Origin: Sandaracinaceae bacterium
GTDB taxonomy: Bacteria; Myxococcota_A; Polyangia; Polyangiales; Sandaracinaceae
Direction: 5' to 3'
Assembly (NCBI GenBank): GCA_019637095.1
Contig: JAHBWG010000023.1
Location: 1 to 39,144 of the forward strand
Length of the DNA: 39,144 nucleotides
The translations under genes and the position numbers were made by a program. Positions 626 to 22,220 of this stretch are shown piece by piece; position 1 is the first letter of the stretch, and every line of letters starts with the position of its first letter. The notes under the pieces were generated by a model that saw only the letters and a program-made list of their open reading frames with translations, was not told where the DNA came from and searched no databases.

Positions 626-626
626 C

Positions 627-1388
<762 letters not shown>

Positions 1389-1412
1389 GACGTGTTCCTC
1401 GATGGAGCGGGG

Positions 1413-2375: not shown

Positions 2376-3904
2376 CGGAACTCTCCCTGAAGGCGCAGCG
2401 TGAACTGGTCGTTGGCGAGGTCGGCGGGCACCCCGCGCGCGTCGCGCCCGAGCTGATCGAGGATCACGTCGTACTGGAAGACGAGCCGCCCTTGGATCCC
2501 GGGGACCACGCCTCCCGGCAAGCGCACACCCACCAACGGAGAGAGCGTGTGGATCGCCGCGTCGGTGGGCACCGACAGCCCGCGGCGCTGGTCCACGAAG
2601 TCGGAGTTCGGGTCGTAGTAGTCGTAGCGGAACCCCAAGACGCCCCAGTCGAGCACTTCCTGCACGACGGCGACGTACGCGGCGACCTCGCGCAGGTCGT
2701 AGCCGATGACGTACGGGTCGGCGACGAAGAGCGAGCGGTCGAGGTTGCTCGCGACCGTCACCTCGGCCAGAACGCGGGTCCAGCCCAGCGAAGTCCGGAA
2801 GCCGACGCGCGCATCGACGTTCAGCGCCCACCGCTCGAACGTCTGCGACGGCGTCGCCGCGCGGCCCGGGACGGCGACGAGCTCGCCCGTGTCGAGCGTC
2901 CCGCTCTCGTTCAGGTCACGCCACTCGAGCCGGCCCTTGACGGCGGGCTGACCGGGAGAGAACCCCGTGCCCCACAGGAACGAGAGGCCGCCGCCGAGCT
3001 CGAGGTCGCCGCCGGGATCGGTCTCGACGCCGAGGCGGCCGGCGAGGTCGGGCGCCTCGGTGGGGTCGAGGACGATCTCCTGGCCCGCCCGATCATCGAG
3101 CGGCGTCCCGCCCATGACCGCCACGTCGTATCGGAAGATGCCGACGCCGCCGCGGGCGCGGACGCCGACGTCGAGCGGACCGCGGAAGAACGCGAGCGAG
3201 CCGGTCGAGCGCTCCATGAACACCCAGTCGCGCTGGCTCTGGCGGACCTCGTGACCGAAGGGGACCTCGGTGAGGCCGGCCGTGAGCTCGAGCCATGGGG
3301 GGAGCGCGCGATCCTCGTTGCGCAGGAGCACTCCGACCGTCGTTCGGCGCAGACCGAAGAAGGGGCCGTTGGTCGTGCTCCCATCGAGCTCGAGCTCCAC
3401 CGCGAAGTGCTCCCACGCACCCGCGATGCGCAGGCGGCCCCGCCGGACGGAGAAGCGATTGCGGTTGAGGATGATGTCCCCTTGCAGCAGCTCGTCCTCG
3501 CTCAGGTCGCTCCAGCCGTACTGCGCCTGGATGTACCCGGTGATCGACAAGCCCCACCGCTGGAGCTCGGCCCCGAGGTCGAGCCCGGGCGAGGCCGGCG
3601 GCGCGGGAGCCTCCGGTCCGGAGGCGTCCTCGGCCTCCGCCGCCTGGCGGAGCGCCTCGCGCGCCTCGAGCGCCTCGATCCGCGCGAGCAGCGCGGCGAC
3701 GTCGGGGCCCTGCGCGGACGCCTCACCGGCCTGAGGCGGTGAGGCGTCCGACGACGGAGCTTGGTCCGTGGCCTCGGGCTCGCTCGCTCCCCCGTCGTCG
3801 TCTTCGATCTCGAAGGTCGCCGACTGTCCATGCGCGTGGGGCACGGCGAGGGTGAGGGTCGCGGTGAGCACCGCGGCCGCGGAGACGGAGCGTGACGAAG
3901 CCAA
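2372..3904 (-). CDS. OprO/OprP-like outer-membrane porin
   Basis: This is a 510-residue secreted beta-barrel protein. It has a signal peptide ending AHG-Q at about residue 26, then an acidic low-complexity linker and a short coiled-coil heptad stretch (VAALLARIEALEAREALRQ, about residues 70-90) like the trimerising N-terminus of phosphate-selective porins. The remainder is a succession of alternating amphipathic strands, including ITGYIQAQYGW and RNRFSVRRGRLRIAG, which match the Porin O/P family start. It ends with a strand in Phe-Arg. It is 39 nt downstream of the small lipoprotein and coupled by GTGA to the next gene. Family members pass phosphate or other anions; with a binding protein upstream, anion uptake is a fair inference, but the substrate is not shown. 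Confidence 0.85.
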   Translation of the reverse strand: MASSRSVSAAAVLTATLTLAVPHAHGQSATFEIEDDDGGASEPEATDQAPSSDASPPQAGEASAQGPDVAALLARIEALEAREALRQAAEAEDASGPEAPAPPASPGLDLGAELQRWGLSITGYIQAQYGWSDLSEDELLQGDIILNRNRFSVRRGRLRIAGAWEHFAVELELDGSTTNGPFFGLRRTTVGVLLRNEDRALPPWLELTAGLTEVPFGHEVRQSQRDWVFMERSTGSLAFFRGPLDVGVRARGGVGIFRYDVAVMGGTPLDDRAGQEIVLDPTEAPDLAGRLGVETDPGGDLELGGGLSFLWGTGFSPGQPAVKGRLEWRDLNESGTLDTGELVAVPGRAATPSQTFERWALNVDARVGFRTSLGWTRVLAEVTVASNLDRSLFVADPYVIGYDLREVAAYVAVVQEVLDWGVLGFRYDYYDPNSDFVDQRRGLSVPTDAAIHTLSPLVGVRLPGGVVPGIQGRLVFQYDVILDQLGRDARGVPADLANDQFTLRLQGEFR

Positions 3905-3943: not shown

Positions 3944-4297
3944 TCAGGGCAGCGGGGGCACCGTGCCGTCGGCGCGCAAGCGCGGGAGTCGAGCGGTCGT
4001 GATCGGGAACGGATCACAGGCTGCGCTGGTGCACGCGTTGAGGAACTGCTCGCTCGTCGACGGGGGGCAGTCCCAGCAGCCCGTGGGGGCGAGGCAGCCG
4101 CCGGCGTCGACGTCGCCTGCGTCGGTGCCCGCGTCGATCGGCGTGTCGCCGCCGTCCTGCGGCTCGCCCGCGTCGAGGGCGCCCGCGTCGCGGGGACCGC
4201 CGGCGTCGGGCGGGGTCGGGTTGTCACGGTCGCAGCCGACCGCGAGGAGCACCGATAGGGCGAGCGCGCTCGCCAGCGTGAGCTTGGTGGTCATCAC
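3944..4297 (-). CDS. Small Asp-Ala-Gly-rich lipoprotein
   Basis: The 117-residue protein has a signal peptide with lipobox LAVGC (Cys at about 22). An extended linker made of repeated DAG/DAGG units follows (about residues 30-67), then a Cys-rich segment with CLAPTGCWDCP and CTSAACDPF (six cysteines). Its ATG overlaps the stop of the preceding binding-protein gene by ATGA, so translation is coupled. Linkers of this kind are common in surface lipoproteins of Polyangia. No known domain is visible. It may be an anchor or partner of the binding protein or porin made from the same mRNA; this is inference. Confidence 0.7.
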   Translation of the reverse strand: MMTTKLTLASALALSVLLAVGCDRDNPTPPDAGGPRDAGALDAGEPQDGGDTPIDAGTDAGDVDAGGCLAPTGCWDCPPSTSEQFLNACTSAACDPFPITTARLPRLRADGTVPPLP

Positions 4298-5502
4298 TGC
4301 ACCTCACAGAAGCCGAAGCGGCAGACGGGGGCTGAGGTGGGACAGTCGCTCGGCCCGAGGCACGCGGTGCAGTCGCTCGCGCCGGTGGCGGCGAAGTCGT
4401 AGTAGCAACCGCACGGCGCCTCCGGCAGGTAGCTGTAGAGCGGGCCGATGTCCTCGTCGCGCCACACCTGCATCGCGCACTCCGGGATGTTCCCGTTCTC
4501 GATGATGATGTCGTTGATGGAGACACCCGCCGGCGCATCGACGGTCCCGGTGAAGTACCCTACGAGCTGGCGCGTCGCGGCGTGCGTGATCGCGCGCGAG
4601 CCGTCGACGGGGACGTAGAAGTGGTAGGGCGTCCAGAGGTAGTAGTGCCCGTCACGCACGTTGCGCTTGTCGAAGGCGGTCGCAGTCGAGTCGGGCCAGT
4701 ACGCGCACGTCTGGTCCCACGCCTGGTAGGCGAGCGTGCGCACCGTCGCGCGGTTGCGGTCCGCGACCTCGGTGCTGACGAAGCCGAGCGCCGCCTCCGG
4801 CGCGACCGCGCCGCTCTCGACGACGCGCTCGACCATGCGGCCGTTCGTGCGCACGTCGCGATCCCCAGGGAACCACGACGCCATGCGCTCCGGGGGGACG
4901 CGCGAGCCGAGCGCGATCACGATCAGCGCCGCCGACGTCGCGTTGCGGCCCCAGAGATGCGCCGGATCGGTCCAGGGGGACACCCCGCCCTCCACGGGCC
5001 CGAACCCGTAGATGAAGTAGCCGGCTTGCGCGCTGATCGACTGCTGGCTCGACGCCTGCGGGACGATCAGGCTCCACGAGGTCACCGGGCCGGGGAAGTC
5101 GCCGATCGTCGACGGAAGCGCGTCGACGCCCTCGCAGAGGCGAGCGTCGGTCCCGAGCATCGCGAAGTTGGGGATGAACCCCGTCGCCGGGAGCGCGCAG
5201 TCGCGCTGCGCCCCCGTCTCGTCCCAGTACGAGGCCGTCCCCGTGATCCCGGCGGCGTCGAGGATCGAGGTGATCCCGAAGCACGCCCCGGGCGACTGGT
5301 AGACGACCGTGACGGGGGGCGCCGCGGGGTTCGTCGCCGCGAGCGCGGCCCCCACCCGCGCGAGCAGCGGCACGGAGGCGCTGCCTCCCGCGCCGATCGT
5401 CACGTTCGGGAGGTCGACGCAGTTCGGGATCTGGGCGCTCGCGGGCGCGGCGCACAGACCGAACGCAGCAGAGAGCAAGAAAAGTTGCCTCGTTCTCATC
5501 AT
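4294..5502 (-). CDS. PstS-like periplasmic substrate-binding protein
   Basis: From the ATG at 5502 the protein is 402 residues with a signal peptide ending ASA-Q. The mature N-terminus (CVDLPNVTIGAGGSASVPLLARVGAALA) resembles the PstS phosphate-binding start, where a Gly/Ser turn binds the anion. The central part (HLWGRNATSAALIVIALGSRVPPERM, WFPGDRDVRTNGRMVERVV, 'ATRQLVGYFTGT') also fits a PstS-like periplasmic binding fold. The C-terminus adds a Cys-rich tail of about 45 residues (PCGCYYDFAATGASDCTACLGP). A start at 5529 is also open; 5502 or 5499 gives a cleaner signal peptide but places GAGGA very close. It heads the minus-strand operon. No Pst permease is adjacent, so it may hand ligand to the porin/TonB system rather than to an ABC importer. 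Confidence 0.65.
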   Translation of the reverse strand: MMRTRQLFLLSAAFGLCAAPASAQIPNCVDLPNVTIGAGGSASVPLLARVGAALAATNPAAPPVTVVYQSPGACFGITSILDAAGITGTASYWDETGAQRDCALPATGFIPNFAMLGTDARLCEGVDALPSTIGDFPGPVTSWSLIVPQASSQQSISAQAGYFIYGFGPVEGGVSPWTDPAHLWGRNATSAALIVIALGSRVPPERMASWFPGDRDVRTNGRMVERVVESGAVAPEAALGFVSTEVADRNRATVRTLAYQAWDQTCAYWPDSTATAFDKRNVRDGHYYLWTPYHFYVPVDGSRAITHAATRQLVGYFTGTVDAPAGVSINDIIIENGNIPECAMQVWRDEDIGPLYSYLPEAPCGCYYDFAATGASDCTACLGPSDCPTSAPVCRFGFCEVQ

Positions 5503-5591
5503 TCCTCGATTGATGCGGCGGTGGTGCACGGTCGATGCCAGCCGCCCGCCTGCCGCTGCGACGGGGCCTAGCCGAAGGTCCTTGCTCGGTC

Positions 5592-6498: not shown

Positions 6499-8127
6499 TC
6501 AGCCCAGGCGCGGCAAGCGCGGCGCTCCTTCGGCGAGGCGCTTCAGGCTGTCGACGAGACAGTCGAGGTCATCGCGGGTGTTGTAGAGCGCGAGCGAGGG
6601 GCGCACGGTCGCCTCGTGGCCGAAGCGGCGCAGCGCGGGCTGCGCGCAGTGGTGCCCCGCGCGCACGGCGATGCCGTCGCGGTCGAGCGCCTTACCGACG
6701 TCCTCGGGGCGGAAGCCCTCGAGCACGAACGACAGCACGCCCGCCTTCTGCGCCGCGGTGCCGACGAGCGAGAGACCCGGCACCTCGCGCAGCCGCGCGG
6801 TGCCGTACGCGAGCAGGCTCTGCTCGTGGGCCTCGACGCGGTGCATGCCGAGGCGCTCGAGGTAGTCGAGCGCCGCCCCGAGACCGACGGCGTCGGCGAT
6901 GTTCCCGGTCCCGGCCTCGAACCGCCCCGGGAGGCCGGCGTACTTCGTCGCGGCGAACGTGACGTCGACGATCATGTTGCCGCCGCCCTGCCACGGCGGC
7001 GTCTCGGCCCACGCGTCGGGGCGACCGTAGACCGCGCCGATGCCGGTGGGCCCGAAGACCTTGTGACCGGAGAAGACGTAGAAGTCCGCGCCGAGCTCGA
7101 CGACGTTCACGGGCATGTGCGAGACCGCCTGCGCGCCGTCCACGAGCGCCCGCGCACCGTAGCGGTGTGCGAGCTGGACGAGCTCGCGCACCGGCGCGAC
7201 GGTGCCGAGCGCGTTCGAGACGTGCGTCAACGCCACAATCTTCGTGCGCGGGCCGATGATGCGCTCCGCCTCCTCGAGGCGGAGCTGCCCCCGGTCGTCC
7301 ACCGGGATGACGCGCAGGTGCGCGCCGACCGCGTCGGCGAGCATCTGCCACGGCACGATGTTCGAATGGTGCTCGAGGTGCGTGAGCACGATCTCGTCGC
7401 CCGCGCCGACGTGCTTGCCGCCCCAGCTCTTCGCGAGGAGGTTGATGCCCTCCGTCGCGCCGCGGACGAAGACGATGTCGTCGGTCGAGCCCGCGCCGAG
7501 GAAGCGCCGCACGGACTCGCGCGCACCCTCGTACGCGTCCGTCGCGCGCGCCGCGAGCGCGTGGGCGGCGCGGTGGATGTTGGAGTTCTCGGCCTCGTAG
7601 AAGTGACGCAAGCGCTCGATCACCGCGCGCGGCTTCTGCGTGGTGGCGGCGTTGTCGAGCCACACGAGCGGCCGCCCGTTCACGTGGGTGGCCAGGATGG
7701 GGAAGTCGTGTCGCACCGAGGCCACGTCGAGCGCGCCCCCGTCGGGCCCGGAAGGGCCGAGCGCGGTCGGCGACGCGAGGGGCACGTCGAAGCTCGAGTG
7801 CGCCCGCTCGAGAATCGACGCGCTCGCGACGCGCGGCGCGCGGGCGGCCTCGGGCGCGACGAAGTACGGGAGCTCCGTGGCGAGCTCCGCCAGGTCGGCG
7901 CCGAGGCCGGCGCGCGCGGCGCCGCCCAGCGGGACGTGGGCCGGGGGGATGGGCGGGACCTCCAGGAGCGGCGTGGAGGGCGGGGATGGAGGCGCGGCGG
8001 AGGCGAGCGGCGGGGAGCCGGTCCGCGCGTGCGCTCCGAGCGCGGGCGGCGCGAGCGGCGCCGCGTAGCCGAGCGCGGCGAGGCCCTGGGCGACGAGACC
8101 CGCGAGCTCTCGCTCAACCGTACTCAT
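6499..8127 (-). CDS. sufS: SufS-type cysteine desulfurase with N-terminal encapsulin-targeting extension
   Basis: This protein uses pyridoxal phosphate to take sulfur from L-cysteine, leaving alanine and an enzyme persulfide. The 542-residue product has a Pro/Ala-rich, low-complexity N-terminal region (1-132) followed by a complete SufS/CsdA class V aminotransferase domain (about 133-535). Visible hallmarks are VWLDNAATTQKP (155-166), THLEHHSNIVPW (249-260), the PLP lysine K356 in FSGHKVFGPTG, and the catalytic C494 in RAGHHCAQP. Ordinary SufS is about 410 residues. The extra 130 match the disordered cargo domain known from family 2A encapsulin systems, including a short LPYFVAPEA motif near residues 86-94. 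The ATG at 8127 lies inside the encapsulin 3' end (14-nt overlap), so the two are co-translated. It is likely packaged in the neighbouring shell. Confidence 0.93.
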   Translation of the reverse strand: MSTVERELAGLVAQGLAALGYAAPLAPPALGAHARTGSPPLASAAPPSPPSTPLLEVPPIPPAHVPLGGAARAGLGADLAELATELPYFVAPEAARAPRVASASILERAHSSFDVPLASPTALGPSGPDGGALDVASVRHDFPILATHVNGRPLVWLDNAATTQKPRAVIERLRHFYEAENSNIHRAAHALAARATDAYEGARESVRRFLGAGSTDDIVFVRGATEGINLLAKSWGGKHVGAGDEIVLTHLEHHSNIVPWQMLADAVGAHLRVIPVDDRGQLRLEEAERIIGPRTKIVALTHVSNALGTVAPVRELVQLAHRYGARALVDGAQAVSHMPVNVVELGADFYVFSGHKVFGPTGIGAVYGRPDAWAETPPWQGGGNMIVDVTFAATKYAGLPGRFEAGTGNIADAVGLGAALDYLERLGMHRVEAHEQSLLAYGTARLREVPGLSLVGTAAQKAGVLSFVLEGFRPEDVGKALDRDGIAVRAGHHCAQPALRRFGHEATVRPSLALYNTRDDLDCLVDSLKRLAEGAPRLPRLG

Positions 8128-9055
8128 GGTAGCGGCCGACCTCGACGTCGGTGAGCACCGCGACGGCGTCGGGCACGGGCACGACGAGCGAGCAGTAGAG
8201 CGAGATGAGGTACGAGGCGATCGCCTCGCGACCGATGCCCATGAAGCGCACCGAGAGCCCTGGCGACTGCTCGCCGGGCAGACCCGGCTGGTAGAGGCCG
8301 ACGACCCCCTGGCGCTGGTCTCCCACACGCAAGAGGAGGATCTGCGTCTTGCCGGCGCCGTCGATCGCGAGCTTGTCGCTCGGCACGAGCGGGATGCCGC
8401 GCCACGTCAGGAACGGGGAGCCGTGGAGCGTCACCGTCGGAGGCGGCACGCCCCGACGAGTACACTCCCGCCCGAACGCCGCGATGGCCCGCGGGTGGGC
8501 GAGGAAGAACGCGGGCTCCTTCCACACGCGGCTGACGAGCTCGTCGAGGTCGTCGGGCGTCGGCGGGCCGGTGCGTGTCTCGACCTTCTGCGACGGGTCG
8601 GTGTTGTGCAGCAGGCCGTAGTCCAGGTTGTGGAGCAGCTCCCGCTCTTGGCGCTCCTTCACGATCTCGATCGTGAGCCGGAGCTGCTGCGAGATCTGGT
8701 CGTGCGGCGTGCTGTAGAGGTCGGAGACGCGCGTGTGGATGTCGAGCACCGTCGTCACGGTGCTGAGGTAGTACTCGCGCGGGTTGGGATCGTAGTCGAC
8801 GTAGGTCTCAGGCAGGGTGCGTTCGCTGCCGCGTTCGCCGCAGGTCACCTCGATCGCGGAGCCCTCGCGCACACGATTGAGCCGGTAGATGCCGGCCTCG
8901 ACGGGCACCCACGGCAAGAAACGCGGGAGCCATCGCGGCGTGATCGCCGCGAGCTGCGGGACCGTCTTGGTGGCGTTCGCGAGCTGACGCGCCGCGACGT
9001 CGCCGAGCGCGCGCGGGGGAGTCGCGCCGGGCGGGCTCTGACTGGGCTCGGTCAT
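8114..9055 (-). CDS. Family 2A (SrpI-like) encapsulin shell protein
   Basis: The 313-residue product matches family 2A encapsulins from end to end. A flexible N-arm is followed by ALGDVAARQLANATKTVPQ, then ITPRWLPRFLPWVPVEAGIYRLNRV, and later NPREYYLSTVTTVLDIHTRVSDLYS, DQISQQLRLTIEIVKERQE and LHNLDYGLLHN. These are conserved blocks of the HK97-fold shell subunit. The C-terminus (SLVVPVPDAVAVLTDVEVGRYHEYG) is the usual A-domain end. No cyclic-nucleotide-binding insertion is present, which separates it from family 2B. An AAGGAG ribosome site precedes the ATG at 9055. In characterised relatives such shells enclose cysteine desulfurase and accumulate sulfur; here the desulfurase gene overlaps its 3' end. 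Confidence 0.94.
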   Translation of the reverse strand: MTEPSQSPPGATPPRALGDVAARQLANATKTVPQLAAITPRWLPRFLPWVPVEAGIYRLNRVREGSAIEVTCGERGSERTLPETYVDYDPNPREYYLSTVTTVLDIHTRVSDLYSTPHDQISQQLRLTIEIVKERQERELLHNLDYGLLHNTDPSQKVETRTGPPTPDDLDELVSRVWKEPAFFLAHPRAIAAFGRECTRRGVPPPTVTLHGSPFLTWRGIPLVPSDKLAIDGAGKTQILLLRVGDQRQGVVGLYQPGLPGEQSPGLSVRFMGIGREAIASYLISLYCSLVVPVPDAVAVLTDVEVGRYHEYG

Positions 9056-9302
9056 GGGTCGTTCGTCTCCTTGGGCTCGGGATGCGCGCGGATCTCGACG
9101 GCGGAGCTCGCCCCGCGAGCGCGCCACTCCGAGCACGACCTCTGCCACACGAGCAGCCCGCGAGTTCGATGGGCCAGCTCGGGCGATCCGTGAGATTCGA
9201 CGGCGAGTCCCGTCGTATGCCACGGTCGCGCCGTCGCGGGTCCCGGTCGTCGCGGTTCTCGCGTGCGGCGTGGGGGAACGCGCCGTGCAACGGTCGAGCG
9301 CG
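9056..9302. promoter_or_regulatory. Divergent intergenic region between encapsulin and cysteine dioxygenase fusion
   Basis: These 247 bases separate two divergently read sulfur genes, so they must hold promoters for both. A small inverted repeat, CGACGG (9198-9203) and CCGTCG (9210-9215), with a 6-nt spacer, is the only symmetric element noticed. No clear sigma-70 -35/-10 pair, sigma-54 box or riboswitch was recognised. A shared regulator site here is plausible but not demonstrated. Confidence 0.4.
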
Positions 9303-11246
9303 ATGCTCCCCACCGAAGACTCGCCGTCCCCGTCGCTGTCCCCGCGCCTCGCGCAGATCGTCCGGCGGTTCTCCGCGCTCGGAGATCACGTGACGCGCCG
9401 CGACGCCATCTCGATCCTCGCCAGCTGTGAGCTCGAGCTGTCGGACATCGAGCGCTTCGTCGAGGAGAGCTCGCATGGCTACGCGCGCCGGCGCGTGGCG
9501 CGCACCGACGCGTTCGAGATGCTCGTCATGACGTGGAAGCCTGGGCAGGGCTCGGTGCCGCACGATCACGCGCGGTCGCTCTGCGCGCTGCGGATCGTGA
9601 GCGGACGCGTGCGCGAGACGCGCTACGCGCCCGCGCGCGACGGACTCGTCGACGCGAGCTCGGCGGGCGACGCCACCGAGACCGAGGTGCTCGTCGACAC
9701 GAGCGAGCACATCCACGCGCTGCGCAACCTCGAGGACGCGCCCTCCACCCTGGTGACGCTGCACGTCTACGCGCCCCCGCTTCCGGAGCTGCGACGGTAC
9801 ACCGCGCGGCCCGAAGGCTCCTCGCTCGAGTCGGTCTTCGCGCGCCCGCGCGCGCCGGCGGCGCCGACGGTGGCGATCGTCGGCGGCGGCTTCTCCGGGA
9901 CGATGGTCGCGGCGCACCTGATCGAGCGCGCGACGGCCGAGGGGCTGCCGCTCTGCGTGGTGCTCGTCGACCGGCAGGCGTCGCTCGCGGAGGGGCCCGC
10001 GTACCGCACGCCCGACCCGCGACACCTCCTCAACGTCCCCGCCTCGAACATGAGCGCATGGCCCGACCGCCCGAGCGACTTCTACGACTGGGCGCGAGAA
10101 CGAGATCCGCGGGTCGAGCCGACGAGCTTCCTTCCCCGCAAGCTCTACGGCGAGTACGTGCGCTCGCGCTTCCTCGAGGCCGCCGCGCGAGCGGGCGAGC
10201 GCGTGAGCGCGGAGGTCCGCCGCGACGAGGTCGCCGCGATCAAGCGCACGCGCTCGGAGCGCCAGCGGCTCGAGCTGTCGGGAGGGACCCTCGACGCTGA
10301 CGTCGTCGTGCTCGCGACGGGGCACCGGCAGCCCGACGACCCGCTCGCGCGAGTGTGGCGCGGCTCGCGCGCGCGCTACGTCGAAGATCCCTGGTCCTCG
10401 CTCGCCCTGACGGCGATCCGCCCGGACGAGACGGTGCTCGTCCTGGGCACGGGCCTCACCGCGGTCGACGCCTTGCTCTCGATCGCGCGGCAGCCGCGCT
10501 CGGCGCCCGTGCTCGCGGTCTCGCGTCGCGGGCTCGCGCCGGAGCGTCACGCGGAGACACCGCGCGCACCGATCGATCCCACGCCCTGGCTCGAGCCGCT
10601 CCTCGCGGCGCCTGGCGGGGCGACCACCCGTGCGCTCGTGCGCGCGGTGCGCCATGCCGCCGCGCGCACCGAGGACTGGCGCCCCGTCGTGGATGGTCTG
10701 CGGCCGTACACCACGCGGATCTGGCGTTCGCTCTCGCCTGCAGAGGCCTCGCGCTTCGTGCGGCACGCGCGGCCCTTCTGGGAGGTGCGTCGCCACCGCA
10801 TGGCCCCTGAGATCGGTCGGTTCGTCGACGAAGCGGTGGCCTCGGGCGTGTTCCGCGCGGTGGCGGGGCGGGTGCGCCGCGCCGAGGCCGACGACGACGG
10901 CGTGACGGTCGAGCTCGGCGTACGCGGTGAGACGGGCTCGCGCATCGTGCGCGCGCACTGGGTCGTCAACTGCACGGGCCCTGGGTCCGGGCCGTGCCTC
11001 GTCCCGGTCGTGCGCTCTCTCGTGGACGGAGGGCTCCTCGAACCGGACGCGCTCGGCCTCGGAGTTCGCACGAGCGACGAAGGTCGTGCGCTCGCGGGCG
11101 GACGCGAAGCAGACGACCTCTTCATCGTCGGCACGCTGCGCAAGCCCGATCTGTGGGAGTCGACCGCCGTGCCCGAGCTCCGTCGTCAGGCCGCGCGCAC
11201 CGCGCAGCTCGTGCTCGAGCGCGCGGGCGGCCGCGGGCCGTCGTGA
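9303..11246 (+). CDS. Cysteine dioxygenase fused to FAD/NAD(P)-binding oxidoreductase
   Basis: The 647-residue product joins two enzymes. Residues about 1-170 form a cupin of the cysteine dioxygenase family: the Fe(II) ligands H87, H89 (VPHDHARS) and H138 (HALRN) are present. Cys94 and Tyr156 (LHVYAPP) stand where the mammalian enzyme forms its Cys-Tyr cofactor, a cysteine many bacterial homologues lack. Residues about 188-640 form a flavoprotein of the NAD_binding_9/FAD-NAD(P) type, with GGGFSG (194-199) and GxGxxx in VLVLGTGLTAVD. The first activity would oxidise L-cysteine to cysteine sulfinate; the flavin domain's substrate is unknown. The ATG at 9303 gives a standard dioxygenase N-terminus. 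It is divergent from the encapsulin and convergent with the permease operon. No frameshift separates the halves, so the fusion appears genuine. Confidence 0.88.
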   Translation: MLPTEDSPSPSLSPRLAQIVRRFSALGDHVTRRDAISILASCELELSDIERFVEESSHGYARRRVARTDAFEMLVMTWKPGQGSVPHDHARSLCALRIVSGRVRETRYAPARDGLVDASSAGDATETEVLVDTSEHIHALRNLEDAPSTLVTLHVYAPPLPELRRYTARPEGSSLESVFARPRAPAAPTVAIVGGGFSGTMVAAHLIERATAEGLPLCVVLVDRQASLAEGPAYRTPDPRHLLNVPASNMSAWPDRPSDFYDWARERDPRVEPTSFLPRKLYGEYVRSRFLEAAARAGERVSAEVRRDEVAAIKRTRSERQRLELSGGTLDADVVVLATGHRQPDDPLARVWRGSRARYVEDPWSSLALTAIRPDETVLVLGTGLTAVDALLSIARQPRSAPVLAVSRRGLAPERHAETPRAPIDPTPWLEPLLAAPGGATTRALVRAVRHAAARTEDWRPVVDGLRPYTTRIWRSLSPAEASRFVRHARPFWEVRRHRMAPEIGRFVDEAVASGVFRAVAGRVRRAEADDDGVTVELGVRGETGSRIVRAHWVVNCTGPGSGPCLVPVVRSLVDGGLLEPDALGLGVRTSDEGRALAGGREADDLFIVGTLRKPDLWESTAVPELRRQAARTAQLVLERAGGRGPS

Positions 11247-11295: not shown

Positions 11296-11772
11296 TCAGG
11301 CGTCCTCGCCGCGCGACGCGTTCACCGACGCGACGTGGCGGACGAGGTCGACCAGGCCCGCGCCGCCGAGCAGCGCGACGACGAAGAAGACCACGTCGAG
11401 GTGCCCCGCGCCGATCGCCGCGAACGATGGTCCCGGACAGAGCCCGACGAGCCCCCAGCCAATCCCGAAGAGCACCGCCCCGAGAACGAGCGAGGGCGTG
11501 ATCCCCGTCTGCCTCGGCAACGCGATCGGCGCGCCGGACGCGCTCGTCGCGCGGGACCTCGCGGCTCGAAAGCCGAAGAACGCGACGCCGATCGCGCCGA
11601 CCATCACGAAGGCGAGCGAGGGATCCCACGCGCCCCCGAGCACATCGAGGAAGCCGAGCACTTTCTCGGGCTGCGACATCCCGGAGACGACGAGGCCGAC
11701 CCCGAAGAGCGCCCCCGCGGCGATCGCGTAGAGCACCTCCAGCGTGACGCGCGAGGTCGAGGTGGCGCTCAC
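11296..11772 (-). CDS. YeeE/YedE-family sulfur permease, second half-size subunit
   Basis: The GTG at 11772 overlaps the stop of the preceding permease gene (GTGA), giving 158 residues with about four membrane helices. The signature [17 protein letters not shown] near the C-terminal third carries the LCPGP motif; its cysteine corresponds to a conserved thiol of the thiosulfate carriers TsuA/YeeE. An N-terminal block [20 protein letters not shown] is also typical (DUF6691-like second half). It works with the adjacent half to import thiosulfate or another sulfur species across the inner membrane. It ends 50 bases from the convergent dioxygenase fusion. Confidence 0.88.
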
Positions 11773-12191
11773 GGCGAGGCTCCGAGGCGGACGACGGTGA
11801 CGGTGACGATGCCGGCGGCCATGAACACCAGCGTCGCGACGAGCGAGCGGAACGAGAGCCGCGAGAGGCCGCACACGCCGTGGCCGCTCGTGCAGCCGTT
11901 ACCCAGGCGCGTGCCGACACCGACGAGCAAGCCGGACACGACGAGCACGCCGGGCCCGCTAGACCATGGCGCGCGGCCGAGGTCGAGGAGCCAGCTCGCG
12001 AGGCCCGCCGCCGCGACGAGGCCGCCGAGGAAGCTCGCGCGCCACGCTCGGTCCGAGCTGCTGATGAGGCCCGCGGCGATGCCGCTGATGCCCGCGATGC
12101 GCCCGTTCGTCAGCACGAGGAGCGTCGCCGAGAGGCCGATGAGCACGCCACCGATCAACGACGCGACCGGGGTGAAGGCCGCCTCGTTCAC
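11769..12191 (-). CDS. YeeE/YedE-family sulfur permease, first half-size subunit
   Basis: This 140-residue membrane protein starts at GTG 12191, overlapping the dioxygenase stop by GTGA. It has about four helices and the diagnostic [17 protein letters not shown] segment, in which the GCTSGH cysteine is one of the conserved residues on the sulfur pathway of TsuA-type carriers. Paired half-length genes of this family are common in proteobacteria and together equal one full-length YeeE. Its overlap on both sides indicates strict co-expression with the dioxygenase and the second half. Substrate (thiosulfate, sulfide or persulfide) cannot be told from sequence. Confidence 0.88.
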
Positions 12192-13279
12192 CGGCTCACC
12201 TCGTCGAAGTAGACGCCACGCACCCAGCGTGGCCCGCGGAAGCCGGTGCGAGCGTGGAGCGTGCGGTGGTTGTCGTAGAGGACGAAGTCGCCCGGCGCGA
12301 TGAGCAGCCGCCACTGGTGCGCGGGCTCGTGGATGACCCGCGCGAAGCGCTGATATGCTCGGTAGAAGCCCTCCATGCGGTCGAAGGGCTCGCGAAACGG
12401 GGCGAACGTGAAGTAGCTGTGGCGCACCTGCACGAGCTCACCGGCGCCGTCGACGCGCAGGAGCGGCGCGTGGAGCACCTTCTCGAAGCCCCTCTGCCGG
12501 CGGTGGAACGTGACGGTCGTCGTGGTGAGCACCTCGAACGCGTCGGCGTCGACCCCGCGCAGGTAGCGGGTCGCCGCGGCCGCGTCGACGAGGAGGTTCT
12601 CGCCCCCGTCCTCGGCGGCGCGGATGCCGTGCAGGAGCTGGTAGCGCGGCGGCTCCTCGAGGAACGGCTGGTCGGTGTGCAGATCGACCGGAGCGTCGGT
12701 GTAGCCGAGCTGATCCGTGTTCTGGTTGCTCGTGTTGTCGGTGCGCAGATCCTCGATGCGCCCGAAGTGCGTGCCGCGGACGGCGAGGCCTTGCGCGGCG
12801 AACCCGTCGATGATCGCCTCGGTGTCGAGACCCGCGCCGAGCACGACGACCGCGCCGTCGCGGCGCGTGCGCTCGAGCGCCTCGGCCGCGAGCGACGCGA
12901 GGCTCTCGTGCGCCGTGGCGGTGACTCGGATCGCGTCGACGTCGTGCGGCGGTGGCGCCAGCGGCGTCGTCTCGCGAGCGTACGCGTGCTCCTCGAGCCA
13001 AGCGAGCGGGAAGCGGCTCGTGCCCGTCGGCCACTCGAGCACGAGCACCTGGTCCTCGAGGCGGGCGGAGCGCGGCCGCGCGTCGAGCGCGACGTGGCGC
13101 GCATCGAGCACGCGCTCGCGCGTCGTCGGATGCACCTCCTCGGGCGCTTGGTGACGTAGCCAGAACCAATGGAAGAGCAGCGCCGGGGCGCCGTCGCGCA
13201 CGACGAGGCGGAGATGATCGGCGCGCGCGTCGATGCGCGCGGCGTGGGTGCGAGCGTTCTCGTCGGGCACGTTCGACAT
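12188..13279 (-). CDS. TauD/gamma-butyrobetaine hydroxylase-like Fe(II)/2-oxoglutarate dioxygenase
   Basis: This 363-residue enzyme has the two-domain layout of gamma-butyrobetaine hydroxylases: a small N-terminal DUF971-like domain (about 15-105) and a TauD/TfdA jelly-roll domain (about 120-362). The iron triad is visible as H201 and D203 in DLHTDQPF and H342 in [12 protein letters not shown]351/R354 in RWVRGVYFD are candidates for 2-oxoglutarate binding. It uses oxygen and 2-oxoglutarate to hydroxylate a small molecule. Relatives act on trimethylammonium compounds or sulfonates such as taurine. The genomic setting (peroxiredoxin upstream, sulfur permeases coupled downstream, cysteine dioxygenase nearby) makes an organosulfur substrate attractive, as inference only. 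The ATG at 13279 is 25 nt behind the peroxiredoxin stop. Confidence 0.85.
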
Positions 13280-13304: not shown

Positions 13305-13943
13305 TCAGCGGTTGGGCTGCGGGGTGACGCGGAGGTACGGACGCACCTCCGTCCAGCCCTTCGGGAACTTCTGCTTCAGGACCTCCGGATCCTTGAGCGA
13401 GGGCACGATCACGACGTCGCCACCGTCCTCCCAGTTCGCCGGCGTCGCGACGGAGTGGCTGTCGGTGAGCTGCAGCGAGTCGAGCACGCGCAGCACCTCG
13501 TCGAAGTTGCGGCCCGTGCTCGGCGGGTAGGTGATGCTCGCGCGGATCTTCTTGTTCGGATCGATGAAGTAGACCGAGCGCACGGTGATCTTCGCGTCGG
13601 TCTCCGGGTGCACGAGGTCGTAGAGCTTGGCGACCTTCTGGTCCGCGTCGGCGAGGATGGGGTAGTCGACCTCCGCGCCCTGGGTCGCCTCGATGTCGCG
13701 GATCCAGCCGTGGTGCGACTCGAGCGGGTCGACCGAGAGCGCGATCGGCTTGGCCTTGCGCGAGGCGAGCGCTCGGCCGAGCTTCGCGACCACGCCGAGC
13801 TCGGTCGTGCACACGGGGGTGAAGTCGGCAGGGTGCGAGAAGAAGATGACCCAGCTCGAGCCGGCCCACTGGTGGAAGCGAATCGTGCCGTGCGTGGAGG
13901 CCTGCTCGAAGTCGGGGGCGATGCTGCCCAGATGAAGGCTCAT
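13305..13943 (-). CDS. 1-Cys peroxiredoxin (Prx6 type)
   Basis: This 212-residue protein matches the Prx6 group over its full length. The active site is PADFTPVCTTELG with peroxidatic C45; downstream are ALSVDPLESHHGWIRDIE, YPILADADQKVAKLYDL and the Prx6 C-terminal domain VATPANWEDGGDVVIVPSL. No second resolving cysteine in the 2-Cys position is seen. It reduces hydrogen peroxide and organic peroxides using an external thiol. It is the first gene of a tightly packed operon with the dioxygenase and sulfur permeases, suggesting defence against peroxide formed by thiol or sulfane-sulfur chemistry. The ATG at 13943 is chosen for homology; the longer open frame upstream is low complexity. Confidence 0.93.
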   Translation of the reverse strand: MSLHLGSIAPDFEQASTHGTIRFHQWAGSSWVIFFSHPADFTPVCTTELGVVAKLGRALASRKAKPIALSVDPLESHHGWIRDIEATQGAEVDYPILADADQKVAKLYDLVHPETDAKITVRSVYFIDPNKKIRASITYPPSTGRNFDEVLRVLDSLQLTDSHSVATPANWEDGGDVVIVPSLKDPEVLKQKFPKGWTEVRPYLRVTPQPNR

Positions 13944-15778: not shown

Positions 15779-15821
15779 GCGCCGGGGACTCTGGGCTCGT
15801 CGCGCGGCATGACCCGTGCGA

Positions 15822-17210
15822 ATGCGGGCGCCGATGGTGAGAACGCTGGCGGTCGCCTGCCTGCTCCTGCTCGGCCTCCCCTCGCCCCGCGCGCACGGGC
15901 AGGAGGAGGGCGGCGAGGTCGAGATGGAGCGGGCGCAGGGCGTAGAGGACGCGAGCGACCCGTCCGAGCCGGCGCTGGCCGAGGTCGAGCCGAGCGAGCT
16001 CGACGCGCTGCGCGAGGAGCTAGCGCGGCTGTCGCGGCGGCTCGAGGTCTTCGAGCGCGAGCGCGAGGCGGCGGCGGGGGGTCCTCCGCCCCCGCCCGCA
16101 GCGCACGAGCCGCGCGTCGCGGGCGCTCCGGGCGGCGGCCTCACCGTCGCGATCGGCGACGCGTTCTCGCTCAACCTCCGGACGCGCTTCCAGATCCGCT
16201 ACCAGCTCGACGTCCCGCAGGATCGCGATCAGGCCCTCTCGCAGATGGTGAACATCGGCACCGCGCGCCTGTGGATCTCGGGCCACGTCCTCGCGCCGGA
16301 GCTGACGTACATGATCCAGCTCGCGGTCGCGGGGCGCGACTTCCGCGACGGGCTGATCTCGCCGATCTTCGACGCGTTCCTCGAGTGGCGCGGACACCGC
16401 GACCTCTCGGTGCGCGCCGGGCAGTTCTTCGTCCCGTTCGATCGCCTGCGGACGGTGCGCGAGTGGGCGCTGCAGATGGGCGACCGGCCGCGCCCGGTGC
16501 TCGAGCTGACGCTCGACCGCGACGTCGGGGTGGTGCTCTTCTCCGACGCGTTCCTCGACGATCGCTCACCGTTCGCGTGGCGGCTCGGCGTGTTCGGCGG
16601 CGGCGGCACGAACCTCACCGAGGGGCGACCGCCGGGCGCGCTCCTCGTGGGCCGGCTCGAGCTGCGCCCGCTCGGTCGCATCGACGACGACACGGAGGGC
16701 GACCTCGATCGACGGCACGAGCCGGGGCTCGCGCTCGGCGCCGCGTTCGCGGTGAACTTCGGGACGGATCGCGCGCTGAGCACGACGGGTCCTCGCTTCG
16801 CAGGCCAAGCCACGACCGACTACCTCCACTTCGCGGCCGACCTCGTCTTCAAGTGGGAGGGCTTCGCGCTCCAGGCCGAGTACCTGTGGAAGCAGGCGAG
16901 CGCCGATCAGCTCGCGGCCGACGTGTTCACGCGCTCGGGGCACGGCTGGGTGCTCCAGGCTTCGTACGTCTTCGACCCGCCGATCGAGCTCGTCGGGCGC
17001 CTCTCGCAGCTCTACGCGATCGGCGCGACCGACCCGCGCCTCGTCGAGGAGGCGGCGCGCCGCGGCGTCGAGGTGGCGGCGGGGCTGAACTACTACCTCA
17101 ACGGGCACCGCTTCAAGATCCAAGCGGACTGGATCGCGCGCATGCCGAGCGACTTCGACCTCTCGCAGGCGCAACACGTCGTGCACGTACAGCTCGACGC
17201 GACGTTCTGA
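15822..17210 (+). CDS. Porin O/P-family outer-membrane porin
   Basis: This protein of about 462 residues has a signal peptide ending AHG-Q and an acidic linker. A coiled-coil heptad stretch (LDALREELARLSRRLEVFERERE, about 55-80) precedes a Pro/Ala hinge. The barrel then begins LTVAIGDAFSLNLRTRFQIRYQLD and continues with the family segments IGTARLWISGHVLAPELTYMIQLA and LSVRAGQFFVPFDRLRT. The last strand ends in Phe (HVQLDATF), the outer-membrane insertion signal. Starts at 15816 (GTG), 15822 and 15834 are all open; none has a strong ribosome site. It resembles the porin at 2.4-3.9 kb in plan but not closely in sequence. The sulfate importer lies 1.1 kb further on, so anion entry is a reasonable guess. 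Confidence 0.85.
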   Translation: MRAPMVRTLAVACLLLLGLPSPRAHGQEEGGEVEMERAQGVEDASDPSEPALAEVEPSELDALREELARLSRRLEVFEREREAAAGGPPPPPAAHEPRVAGAPGGGLTVAIGDAFSLNLRTRFQIRYQLDVPQDRDQALSQMVNIGTARLWISGHVLAPELTYMIQLAVAGRDFRDGLISPIFDAFLEWRGHRDLSVRAGQFFVPFDRLRTVREWALQMGDRPRPVLELTLDRDVGVVLFSDAFLDDRSPFAWRLGVFGGGGTNLTEGRPPGALLVGRLELRPLGRIDDDTEGDLDRRHEPGLALGAAFAVNFGTDRALSTTGPRFAGQATTDYLHFAADLVFKWEGFALQAEYLWKQASADQLAADVFTRSGHGWVLQASYVFDPPIELVGRLSQLYAIGATDPRLVEEAARRGVEVAAGLNYYLNGHRFKIQADWIARMPSDFDLSQAQHVVHVQLDATF

Positions 17211-18297: not shown

Positions 18298-19335
18298 TCA
18301 CATCGACGAGCTCGACCCGTACGCGCGGGCGGACGTGACCTCGACGGCGACGCGGGCGCCGGGCTCGACGCCGCGCAGGAGGCTGCTGCGGCGCGGGAAC
18401 TGGGCGACGATCGCGCCCGCGCCGTCGACGGTGGCGTGGACGCGGACGCGATCACCGAGGGTGACCACGCGCTCGACCGTCGCGACGCCCGCGTCGTCGC
18501 GCCAGAGCTTCAGATCGTAGGAGCGCACGACGAGGTGCACGTCGCCTTCGGGCCCGCCCGTGGGTACCTCGGCGCGGAGCGCGCCCGCGCGCGCGGTGGC
18601 GCCCTCGACGCGCGCGTCGAGCACGTTCACCTCGCCGACGAAGCGCGCGACGAACTCCGTCGCCGGCTCGTCGAGGATCTGCGCTGGGGTCCCGCTCTGC
18701 TCGAGGCCGCCGCGGTGGATCACGAGCACGCGGTCGGCGACGGAAAAGGCCTCGTCCTGGTCGTGGGTGACGAAGATCGAGGTGACGCCGACCTCGTCGT
18801 GCAGGCGCCGCAGCCACTCGCGCAGCTCCTCGCGGACCTTCGCGTCGACCGCGCCGAAGGGCTCGTCGAGCAAGAGGAGCTTGGGCTCGGGCGCGAGCGC
18901 GCGGGCGAGCGCGACGCGCTGGCGCTGGCCACCCGAGAGCTGCGAAGGGAAGCGTCGCTCGAGGCCGCCGAGGCCGACGAGCGCGAGGAGCTCGCGCGCC
19001 CGGCGGCGCGCCTCGGGCTTGGGGACGCCGCGCACATCGAGCCCGAAAGAGACGTTGTCCTCCACCGTGAGGTGGCGAAAGAGCGCGTAGTGCTGGAAGA
19101 CGAAGCCGATGGCGCGCGCGCGCGCGTGCACGCGCGTGGCGTCCTCGTCGCCGAGCCACACCGCGCCCGCGTCGGGCGTGTCGAGGCCGGCGAGGATGCG
19201 CAAGATGGTGCTCTTGCCGCTCCCGGACGGGCCCAGGAGCGCGACGAGCGAGCCGCTCCGTACCTCGAAGGTCACGTCGCGGACCGCCTCGAAGGTCCCG
19301 AAGCGCTTCGAGAGGTGCTCGACCCGGATGTTCAT
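18298..19335 (-). CDS. cysA: Sulfate/thiosulfate ABC importer ATP-binding protein
   Basis: This 345-residue ATPase has Walker A GPSGSGKST (35-43), the Q-loop FVFQHYALF, signature LSGGQRQRVALARAL, Walker B LLLLDEPFGAVD and H-loop VTHDQDEA. A C-terminal TOBE-like domain of about 100 residues follows (WRDDAGVATVERVVTLGDRVRVHATVDG), with FVGEVNVLDARV before it, as in CysA. It powers sulfate/thiosulfate import with the two permeases upstream; its ATG overlaps the cysW stop (ATGA). Molybdate or other anion importers share this plan, but the CysT/CysW pair makes sulfate the best call. Confidence 0.93.
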   Translation of the reverse strand: MNIRVEHLSKRFGTFEAVRDVTFEVRSGSLVALLGPSGSGKSTILRILAGLDTPDAGAVWLGDEDATRVHARARAIGFVFQHYALFRHLTVEDNVSFGLDVRGVPKPEARRRARELLALVGLGGLERRFPSQLSGGQRQRVALARALAPEPKLLLLDEPFGAVDAKVREELREWLRRLHDEVGVTSIFVTHDQDEAFSVADRVLVIHRGGLEQSGTPAQILDEPATEFVARFVGEVNVLDARVEGATARAGALRAEVPTGGPEGDVHLVVRSYDLKLWRDDAGVATVERVVTLGDRVRVHATVDGAGAIVAQFPRRSSLLRGVEPGARVAVEVTSARAYGSSSSM

Positions 19336-20192
19336 CGATCCGCCTCTTTCTCGGCGGCGCGCGCCCGCCGCCCCTTGGCCCACTCGAGCGCCGCGAGCAG
19401 CAGCACGCTGATCGCGGCGAGCAGCGCCGCCATGCCGTACGCGGGCGCGAGCTCGCGCTCCTCGATCGCGTCGTGGATGAACGTGGTGGCGGTCTGCGTC
19501 TGGCCGGAGATGCTGCCGCCGAGCACGAGCACCGCGCCGAACTCGCCGAGGCTGCGGGCCATCGTCATCAAGAGGCCGTAGCCGAGCGCGACGCGCACGT
19601 TGGGGAGCGTCACGCGCCAGAACGTCTGCCACGCAGAGGCGCCGAGCGTCACGGCGGCCTCCTCCTCGCTCGTGCCGATCTCCTCGAGCACGTACGCGAC
19701 CTCGCGGATCGTGTAGGGGAGCGTCACGAACAGCACCGCGACGACGAGCCCGGGGAACGCGAACACCACGCGCACGCCGAGCGCGTCGAGCCACGGCGCG
19801 AGCACGCCGTCGCGACCCACCAGCGCGAGGAACGCGAGCCCGATCACCACCGGCGAGACGGCGAGCGGCAGGTCCGCGAGCGCGCTGAGGAGCGCGCGCC
19901 CGCGAAAGCGGTGCCGCACGATCGCGATCGCGCCCGCGGTCCCGACCACGGCGTTGACCGCGACCGCGATCGCCGTGAGGACGACGGTCATGCGCAGCGC
20001 GGCGAGCGCGTCCTCGCGGCCGAGGGCGCCGAGCGCGGCACCGACGCCGACGTCCGCGAGCTCGCCGCCGAGCGCGCCGAGCGGCCCGATCAGGACGACG
20101 CCGAGGTAGAGGAGCACGAGGATGACGAGCGCCACGCGTCCCGCGCGCGCCCCGGTGCTGGACGCCGCCGGCGCGCGCGCGTCACTCCGCAC
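19332..20192 (-). CDS. cysW: Sulfate ABC importer permease CysW
   Basis: This 286-residue inner-membrane protein has about six helices. The family permease loop is EEEAAVTLGASAWQTFWRVTLPNVRVALGYGLLMTMARSLGEFGAVLVLGG, containing the EAA motif that docks on CysA. PLAVSPVVIGLAFLALVG and TTFIHDAIEERELAPAYGMAALLA are CysW-like. The GTG at 20192 gives an 11-nt overlap with cysT. The N-terminus has about 18 extra residues relative to typical CysW. It forms a heterodimer with CysT as the transport channel. Confidence 0.92.
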   Translation of the reverse strand: MRSDARAPAASSTGARAGRVALVILVLLYLGVVLIGPLGALGGELADVGVGAALGALGREDALAALRMTVVLTAIAVAVNAVVGTAGAIAIVRHRFRGRALLSALADLPLAVSPVVIGLAFLALVGRDGVLAPWLDALGVRVVFAFPGLVVAVLFVTLPYTIREVAYVLEEIGTSEEEAAVTLGASAWQTFWRVTLPNVRVALGYGLLMTMARSLGEFGAVLVLGGSISGQTQTATTFIHDAIEERELAPAYGMAALLAAISVLLLAALEWAKGRRARAAEKEADR

Positions 20193-21006
20193 GGCGCGCC
20201 CCCGTGCGGCGCTCGACCGCCCACGCGACCGCGTGGAGCGCGAGCGCGAGCGCCAAGAGCCCGATCGACGTCGCCGCCGCCGCGCCGGGCTCTCCGCTCT
20301 CGATCTCGCCGAACACGAACACCGGCGCGGTGAGCGTCCGGCCGGGCACGTTGCCCGCGATCACGACGATGGAGCCGAACTCGCCGAGCGCGCGGCCGAC
20401 CGAGCGGATCCCGCCGGAGAGCGCCGCGGGGAGGATCGCCGGCAGGAACACGGTGCGAAACGTCTGGACCGGACCCGCGCCCAGGACGATCGCCGCCTCC
20501 TCCTCCGCGGGATCGATCTCGGCCAAGAGCGGCTCCACCGCGCGCACGACGAACGGGAGCGTGACGAAGAGCAGCGCGAGCACGATCCCCGGGCGCGCGA
20601 AGACGACCTCGACGCCGAGCGCCGAGAGCGCGCGGCCGGCCAGCGCGGTCGGGCCGTAGAGGAGCGCGAGCATCACGCCAGCCACCAGCGTCGGGATCGC
20701 CAGGGGCAGGTCGACGAGCGCCGAGAGCAGCGCGCGGCCCGGGAGGCGGTAGCGCACGAGGACCCACGCCGTCGCGGTGCCGAGCACGACGTTCAGCGCG
20801 CCGACGAGGAGCGCCGTCCAGGTCGTGAGCCACAGCGCGGCACGCGCGGTCGGCGCGCCGATGCGGCCGAAGAACGCGGCCGGTCCGTCGGCGAGGCCGA
20901 CCTCGACGAGCGTCGCGAGCGGCACCGCGACGAGCGCGACCACGTAGAGCACCACGCCCGCGCGCAGCGCGCGCGCGAGCGGCCCGGGCGCCAGCGCGGC
21001 GCTCAT
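20182..21006 (-). CDS. cysT: Sulfate ABC importer permease CysT
   Basis: This 274-residue permease starts at ATG 21006, in an ATGA overlap with the binding-protein gene. It has six predicted helices and the EAA loop EEEAAIVLGAGPVQTFRTVFLPAILPAALSGGIRSVGRALGEFGSIVVIAGN. DLPLAIPTLVAGVMLALLYGPTA and FARPGIVLALLFVTLPFVVRAVEP are strongly CysT/CysU-like. It pairs with CysW. The gene order binding protein-CysT-CysW-CysA is the classical sulfate operon. Confidence 0.92.
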   Translation of the reverse strand: MSAALAPGPLARALRAGVVLYVVALVAVPLATLVEVGLADGPAAFFGRIGAPTARAALWLTTWTALLVGALNVVLGTATAWVLVRYRLPGRALLSALVDLPLAIPTLVAGVMLALLYGPTALAGRALSALGVEVVFARPGIVLALLFVTLPFVVRAVEPLLAEIDPAEEEAAIVLGAGPVQTFRTVFLPAILPAALSGGIRSVGRALGEFGSIVVIAGNVPGRTLTAPVFVFGEIESGEPGAAAATSIGLLALALALHAVAWAVERRTGARRAE

Positions 21007-22040
21007 CGCGCGGCCCGCGCGCTCCGTCGCTCGACCGCTCGGTCGTACACGCCGCCCTCGTCGAACACCACGCGGCGCAGCGCGGCCCAGCCGCCGAGGT
21101 CGCGCGCGGTGAAGACGTCGCCGGCGGCCGGGAAGCGCCCCTCGACCTCGGCGGCGACGGCGGGGACGACGGGACGCAGGCCGTGCTCCGCGTAGGCGCG
21201 CTGCGCCTCGGGCGTGGTGAGGAAGTCGACGAACGCGCGGGCGAGCGCGCGGGTGCCGTGGCGATCCGCGTACGCGTCGACGACGGCGGCCGGGTTCTCG
21301 ATGAGGACCGTCGAGGCCGGCACGACGTAGTCGTAGCGCTGGCCGTTCAGCCGCCCGACGAGGATCTCGTTCTCGTACGTGATGACCGCATCGCCGACCC
21401 CGCGCTCGAACGTGAGCATGGAGTCGCGCGCGCCACGGTCCATGATGCGCACGTTCGCGAGGATGGACGCGAGCAGATCGGTGGCGGCCTCGGGGTCGCC
21501 CGCGGCGACGCCTGCGTGGCCGCGCATCGCCGCGCCGTAGATCGCGAGGATGTTCCACATCGCGCCGCCGCTCGTGCGCACGTTCGGCGTGAGCACCTCG
21601 AGCCCCGGGCGCGCGAGGTCCTGCCACGTGCGGATCGCGCGCGGGTTCCCCTCGCGCACGCCGATCACCACGAGCGAGCGGCTCACCATCCCGCCGTGCT
21701 CGCCCGCGTCCCATCCGTCGCCGACCAACCCGGCCGCGACGAGCGTCGCGATGTCGGGCTCGAGCGAGAGCAGCGCCACGTCCGCCTCGAAGCCGCCGGC
21801 GATGGCGCGCGCCTGCGCGCCGCTCGCGAGGTACGACTCGCGGAAGCTCACCTCGCGCGCGTGCTCGTCGCGCCAGTGGCGCGCGAACGCGGGCAAGATC
21901 GCGCGGCCGTACGCCTCGCGCGGCGTCGTGTACGCGCCGAGCGTCAGCCGGTCGATCGAGCCGTTCTGTTCACCTCCACAGCCGATGAGCGTAGCGAGCA
22001 CGGCGAAGCCGGCGCTCGCCCGGACGAGGCGGGTCCACAT
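21003..22040 (-). CDS. Sulfate/thiosulfate-binding lipoprotein
   Basis: From ATG 22040 the protein is 345 residues with a lipoprotein signal and lipobox LIGC (Cys at about 21). The body follows the Sbp/CysP fold: SYLASGAQARAIAGGFEADVALLSLEPDIATLVAAGLV, LVVIGVREGNPRAIRTWQDLARPGLEVLTPNVRTSGGAMWNILAIYGAA, and VGDAVITYENEILVG. The usual Gly-Gly-Ser before the first anion helix is here Ala-Ser-Gly, a modest change at the binding loop. It delivers sulfate or thiosulfate to CysTW. Many family members are soluble; membrane anchoring by lipid is the variation here. The open frame extends to 22130 but that part is Arg-rich and unlike a signal peptide. Confidence 0.88.
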   Translation of the reverse strand: MWTRLVRASAGFAVLATLIGCGGEQNGSIDRLTLGAYTTPREAYGRAILPAFARHWRDEHAREVSFRESYLASGAQARAIAGGFEADVALLSLEPDIATLVAAGLVGDGWDAGEHGGMVSRSLVVIGVREGNPRAIRTWQDLARPGLEVLTPNVRTSGGAMWNILAIYGAAMRGHAGVAAGDPEAATDLLASILANVRIMDRGARDSMLTFERGVGDAVITYENEILVGRLNGQRYDYVVPASTVLIENPAAVVDAYADRHGTRALARAFVDFLTTPEAQRAYAEHGLRPVVPAVAAEVEGRFPAAGDVFTARDLGGWAALRRVVFDEGGVYDRAVERRSARAAR

Positions 22041-22220
22041 GCGCAGCGCGGTGAGCAGCAACCGCGCCAGCGCGGAGCACGGGCCCCGGCGCGGGCCCAC
22101 CCATCGTCCCTCACGGCGTCGCCGCGCCATCCCACGGGTGCCCGTCGAATGTCACGGCGCGGCGTCGAGCACGACCCCGCGCCGTCGCCCCTCACCGACC
22201 GAGCGCCCAACGCAAGAAGG

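Follow-up and report, generated by a model that had tools for sequence, protein, structure and literature searches.

The window, a stretch of 39,144 nucleotides from a Sandaracinaceae bacterium, contains a gene in which a cysteine dioxygenase (CDO) and a flavoprotein are joined in one chain (Table 1). As the first-pass annotation had supposed, a single intact frame encodes both halves; it opens with an ATG and runs uninterrupted for 647 codons, and each half is recognized by a Pfam family far over the cut-off, CDO_I at residues 27-168 (E = 6e-19) and NAD_binding_9 (PF13454) at residues 191-341 (E = 7e-43). The C-terminal remainder of the chain is part of the same flavoprotein. Among PDB sequences, mammalian CDO1 is matched across the whole N-terminal domain (E = 9e-12). 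The fusion is the sole CDO of its genome, and a search of the genome contigs with the fusion protein returned two loci only. An AlphaFold2 model calculated from a four-row alignment reached a mean pLDDT of 54 and a pTM of 0.39 and was set aside.

Table 1. The fusion gene, its parts and neighbours in the window, and the related fusions on Nostoc plasmids
Feature	Position	Strand	Remarks and basis
CDO-flavoprotein fusion gene	9303..11246	+	647 aa; Pfam domains, fused homologues
Cysteine dioxygenase domain (PF05995)	9381..9806	+	residues 27-168; Fe ligands H87, H89, H138; R62, C94, H154, Y156
Linker between domains	9807..9860	+	about residues 169-186; alignment
FAD/NAD(P)-binding flavoprotein half	9861..11243	+	PF13454 at 191-341; GGGFSG 194-199, DVVVLATGHRQPDDP 333-347, GTGLTAVD 382-389
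Type 2A encapsulin shell protein, SrpI-like (PF19307)	8117..9052	-	E = 7e-107; divergent from fusion
SufS-type cysteine desulfurase	6502..8127	-	N-terminal extension of ~130 residues; near family 2A encapsulin cargo model NF041166
DUF6691 half of YeeE/YedE-type sulfur transporter pair	11299..11874	-	domain match
Sulf_transp half of YeeE/YedE-type pair	11772..12254	-	domain match
TauD-family 2-oxoglutarate dioxygenase, gamma-butyrobetaine/TmpA-like	12191..13279	-	domain matches
1-Cys peroxiredoxin	13308..13943	-	also adjoins fusion in G024 and stand-alone flavoprotein in G180
Secreted protein without Pfam family	4297..5529	-	conserved near fusions in G003, G088, G294
Sulfate ABC transporter (ATPase, two permeases, binding protein)	18301..22130	-	homology
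Nostoc plasmid flavoprotein-persulfide dioxygenase fusions	L063 4965-7250; L087 6962-9271		domain search

The genes around the fusion are largely concerned with the uptake and handling of sulfur, and several of them recur elsewhere. The YeeE/YedE-type transporter pair is also found near the fusions of G088 and G073, a peroxiredoxin and a rhodanese lie near that of G024, and the sulfate ABC transporter has homologues next to the G077 fusion and, in G323 and G130, next to flavoproteins that stand alone. The secreted protein looks like a binding protein. Proteins resembling phosphate-selective porins are encoded at a greater distance from the fusion in the window, and porins also beside the fusion in G077; the contexts in G001, G006, G209 and G173 are not obviously related to sulfur. 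A set of ExbB/ExbD and two Porin_O_P-like genes (window 206-3904 on the minus strand and 15816-17207 on the plus strand) recurs around the fusions of G077 and G088, which suggests that the sulfur cluster includes a set for energised uptake across the outer membrane.

The shell and desulfurase genes adjoining the window fusion recall the known systems in which a family 2A encapsulin is paired with a cysteine desulfurase (PMC8049743, PMC8346489). The desulfurase scores 786 bits against a cut-off of 800 for NF041166, and its N-terminal extension is shorter than that of the model. However, the SrpI encapsulin accompanies the fusion in only two of the 11 fusion genomes (G000 and G003), so that we rejected the idea that the fusion generally belongs to the encapsulin system, and PMC8346489 names no dioxygenase as an accessory gene of family 2A encapsulins. 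We also looked for a conserved regulatory site in the stretch separating the fusion from the encapsulin gene; compared with one relative, clear conservation is confined to the first bases by the encapsulin start.

The fusion is genuine, conserved and old. Among 379 sampled genomes of the phylum, 41 carry a CDO and 11, distributed over six families, carry it fused to the flavoprotein; one of these genomes (G001) consists of a single contig. The fused copies have diverged to 31-35% identity while keeping both halves. For the window fusion the GC content by codon position is 0.76/0.56/0.91. Comparison with a 78% homologue gives a dN of 0.17 and a dS of 0.63 (dN/dS ~0.27), and most of the change falls at third codon positions in each of the CDO, the linker and the flavin half, which indicates that the joined frame as a whole is under purifying selection. 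The first-pass annotation had called for a search for identical architectures and would have been contradicted by homologues that are always split, with an error joining the two genes here. Fused and split forms in fact both exist, and since independent fused copies are found elsewhere, a sequencing error or a chance join is excluded, also by the dN/dS ratio. In a literature search for the CDO-flavoprotein architecture we could find no paper describing it, in agreement with the earlier impression that it has no characterized precedent; the fusion thus appears to be undescribed, while the kinds of enzyme it is made of are already known.

By its residues the N-terminal half resembles mammalian CDO1 and other CDOs of the Arg type (PF05995), with which it shares the three histidine ligands, R62, W78, H154, Y156 and C94, and from which it differs by being fused to a flavoprotein. 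Aligned to human CDO1, H87, H89 and H138 correspond to H86, H88 and H140, confirming that the complete set of iron ligands assigned earlier is present, and R62 corresponds to R60, the residue that binds the substrate carboxylate (PMC8050391). The three histidines are invariant in all 11 fused copies; the canonical CDO residues, among them the Arg60 equivalent, are kept in 10. The outer-sphere network of the window protein consists of T152, H154 (human H155) and Y156, with Thr in place of Ser. These residues lead us to assign this half, as a strong inference, to the Fe(II) cysteine dioxygenases of the Arg type.

Bacterial CDOs are said to use an unmodified tyrosine (PMC8050391). The placing of Cys94 and Tyr156 at the positions of the eukaryotic Cys-Tyr cofactor held up, since they align with C93 and Y157 of the human enzyme, and so did the statement that many bacterial CDOs lack the cysteine: it is missing from 23 of the 29 stand-alone copies compared, and hence present in 6/29, as against 10/11 fused ones, counts that are not independent because the copies are related. 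Cys94 and Tyr156 of the window protein are probably joined in the thioether cofactor. The fused copy of G173 (L048 4182-6032, minus strand) has retained the iron ligands and has lost the substrate arginine, the cofactor cysteine and the second-shell His154, and must for this reason differ in its substrate or be inactive.

For the flavin half we searched solved structures with a profile built from twelve copies. The best relative is an NADPH-dependent enzyme, the L-aspartate N-hydroxylase from Streptomyces sp. V2 (8cp2, also 8cp5; E = 1.4e-15). It is a class B monooxygenase that binds aspartate in a site rich in arginines (PMC10404684). Further matches are flavoprotein reductases and the lysine N6-monooxygenase MbtG. 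With this CreE/FzmM-type enzyme the flavin half shares the FAD and NADP motifs. The two nucleotide-binding motifs noticed at first sight are indeed a GxGxxG (194-199) for FAD and a GxGxx (382-389) for NADP in one chain, near invariant in the fused copies. The class B flavin monooxygenase motif is D(3X)(L/F)ATGY(4X)P; DVVVLATGHRQPDDP fits D(3X)LATGH(4X)P, with His where the motif has Tyr. We consider the C-terminal half to be monooxygenase-like, a kinship evident from its sequence, and presumably active with FAD and NAD(P)H. It is not an L-aspartate N-hydroxylase itself, a membership that we rejected because the aspartate-binding Arg13 is replaced by Ser198 in the window protein, with Ser, Ala or Thr at this place in the remaining fusions, which also makes it unlikely that aspartate or cysteine sulfinate is bound as in 8cp2. 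The gene context differs as well, and the C-terminal substrate part cannot be aligned, the HMMER alignment to 8cp2 ending at chain residue 228, before the cluster of Arg266/276/409/412/416/577 and Asn413. The flavoprotein domain also gives a weak NCBIfam match to the FAD-NAD(P)-binding protein PRK09897 (NF007381); however, the fusion scores 38 bits against an equivalog cut-off of 783, and PRK09897 has no dioxygenase domain.

Phylogenies of the two halves bear on how the fusion arose. In the CDO tree all fused copies fall into one clade (95/84), which also includes a single stand-alone copy. In the flavoprotein tree, a clade uniting the fused copies with the stand-alone copies of the genomes of family f37, which hold CDO and flavoprotein as separate genes, is allowed (AU p = 0.54), whereas a clade of fused copies only is rejected (AU p = 5e-6). 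These results disfavour multiple origins of the fusion within the phylum, and the simplest history would be a single fusion followed by separation or loss in f37. Stand-alone copies of the flavoprotein also occur in the phylum. Split pairs outside it were encountered in two places. On the Streptomyces cattleyicolor plasmid pSCATT (L061), a CDO at 8764-9333 and a flavoprotein at 9330-10685 overlap by four bases in a part of the record that is unannotated. In an actinomycete metagenome-assembled genome (L009), genes for TauD, flavoprotein and CDO follow each other in this order, the latter two overlapping when the first ATG of the CDO is taken as its start. The CDOs of these actinobacterial split pairs belong to other clades of the CDO tree than the fused ones, so the pairing of CDO with the flavoprotein arose again. 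Such pairs are rare: a plasmid collection gave 599 matching records, mostly of the flavoprotein only, two records of one plasmid covering both, and among 54 CDO-bearing actinobacterial genomes a relative of the flavoprotein is present in five and adjacent to the CDO in one, the genome found first.

The flavoprotein is also joined to a second, unrelated iron enzyme. In two Nostoc plasmid fusions it is followed by a C-terminal persulfide dioxygenase of 276 aa (4ysb, E = 3e-75; human ETHE1 4chl, E = 6e-64), and one of these genes ends an operon with ssuD and ssuC, near an arylsulfatase. The known persulfide dioxygenases and their fusions (ETHE1, BpPRF) resemble the window protein in that a sulfur-oxidising iron enzyme is joined to a second sulfur enzyme, and in Nostoc one is fused to the very same flavoprotein, but their dioxygenase fold differs from that of CDO. 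The fusion partner known from PRF is rhodanese and not the flavoprotein linked to CDO. The exchange of domains with persulfide dioxygenase is the strongest hint at the function of the flavin half. Two copies in Sinorhizobium lie near SfnB, one gene away. Other contexts, namely an amidase/racemase cluster in Azospirillum and the surroundings in Sphingomonas and Novosphingobium, have no clear link to sulfur; together with the stand-alone copies in the phylum they indicate that the flavoprotein may have a more general reaction. In two actinobacterial genomes (L093, L094) and on two Streptomyces plasmids (L065, L090) it carries a C-terminal extension of ~400 residues with a faint TPR-like match only, which represents another fusion of the flavoprotein module. 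A search for an anti-phage role gave no PADLOC match.

We tentatively propose, mainly from domains and gene context, that the protein is a bifunctional oxygenase for the scavenging of organosulfur, a possible reading if somewhat short of a probable one. The flavin half would use FAD and NAD(P)H to oxygenate an organosulfur compound and thereby free or prepare a thiol, which is probably cysteine or a related amino acid thiol. The iron half would add O2 to this thiol to give a sulfinate, from which, going by the known metabolism of cysteine sulfinate, ordinary transamination could release sulfite for assimilation. The fusion may in this way work together with the surrounding genes for sulfur uptake and sulfur storage. 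The direction of the flow, from the flavin to the iron half, is suggested by the persulfide dioxygenase partner, which likewise consumes reduced sulfur and yields sulfite. A CDO taking part in sulfur scavenging has a precedent in Gordonia, where the enzyme is expressed more on organosulfonates than on sulfate (PMC7661421). What counts against the scavenging proposal is that several fusions and flavoprotein copies have no evident sulfur genes around them, and that oxidation of cysteine seems odd under sulfur starvation.

The reverse order is also conceivable, with the flavin half acting after the CDO to N-oxidise cysteine sulfinate, an isostere of L-aspartate, to a product that breaks down to sulfite. 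The closest solved structure being an L-aspartate N-hydroxylase, the sulfinate delivered by the fused CDO would be a near analogue of its substrate. Against this stand the substitution of Arg13 and the Nostoc fusions, where the product of the persulfide dioxygenase is sulfite itself, so that the flavin half would find no sulfinate to act on. The stretch W493-E494-x2-R497 does resemble R412-N413-x2-R416 of the aspartate enzyme, in a region that is not reliably aligned, but the N413E exchange in that enzyme blocks substrate hydroxylation (PMC10404684). Taken together we regard this order as unlikely. The first-pass annotation had suggested that the flavin half might recycle iron, as a helper reducing Fe(III) to Fe(II) in the dioxygenase to which it is fused. 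CDO and persulfide dioxygenase, though of unrelated fold, both require Fe(II), and the attachment of the module to each of them would agree with such a role, which is nevertheless quite improbable in view of the many flavoprotein copies with no dioxygenase fused or adjacent and of a best solved relative that is a monooxygenase with a substrate domain of its own. Finally, cysteine catabolism and an unrelated flavoenzyme might have been joined for co-regulation only. The flavoprotein family is broad, its neighbours are varied, and f37 genomes manage with two genes; yet the pairing with sulfur-oxidising dioxygenases has come about repeatedly and independently and the fusion has long been retained, so we doubt this explanation too. 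Compared with the three roles raised by the first-pass annotation, recycling of iron, use of the sulfinate and oxidation of another thiol, the persulfide dioxygenase fusion, the sulfur-uptake context and the kinship with monooxygenases favour, short of proof, a separate step of organosulfur oxygenation by the flavin half.

A broader form of the scavenging proposal, which we think somewhat unlikely to hold in full, would see a modular family in which one module resembling flavin monooxygenases is paired with interchangeable iron enzymes of the sulfur dioxygenase kind, CDO in the phylum and persulfide dioxygenase in Nostoc. The freed thiol or persulfide would be passed directly to the iron site and converted to sulfinate or sulfite, with no release of reduced sulfur, and the CDO form would contain a bacterial Cys-Tyr cofactor. 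The fused CDOs are in any case bacterial candidates for a cofactor attributed, in the literature cited here, to eukaryotic enzymes. PF13454 is a large flavoprotein family in which few roles are known; the links of the module to sulfur-uptake genes and to a pair of unrelated iron enzymes that oxidise sulfur now give part of it a testable function. Fusions reveal reactions that belong together, and this one points to a compact path, so far undescribed, by which organic sulfur would be turned into sulfite.
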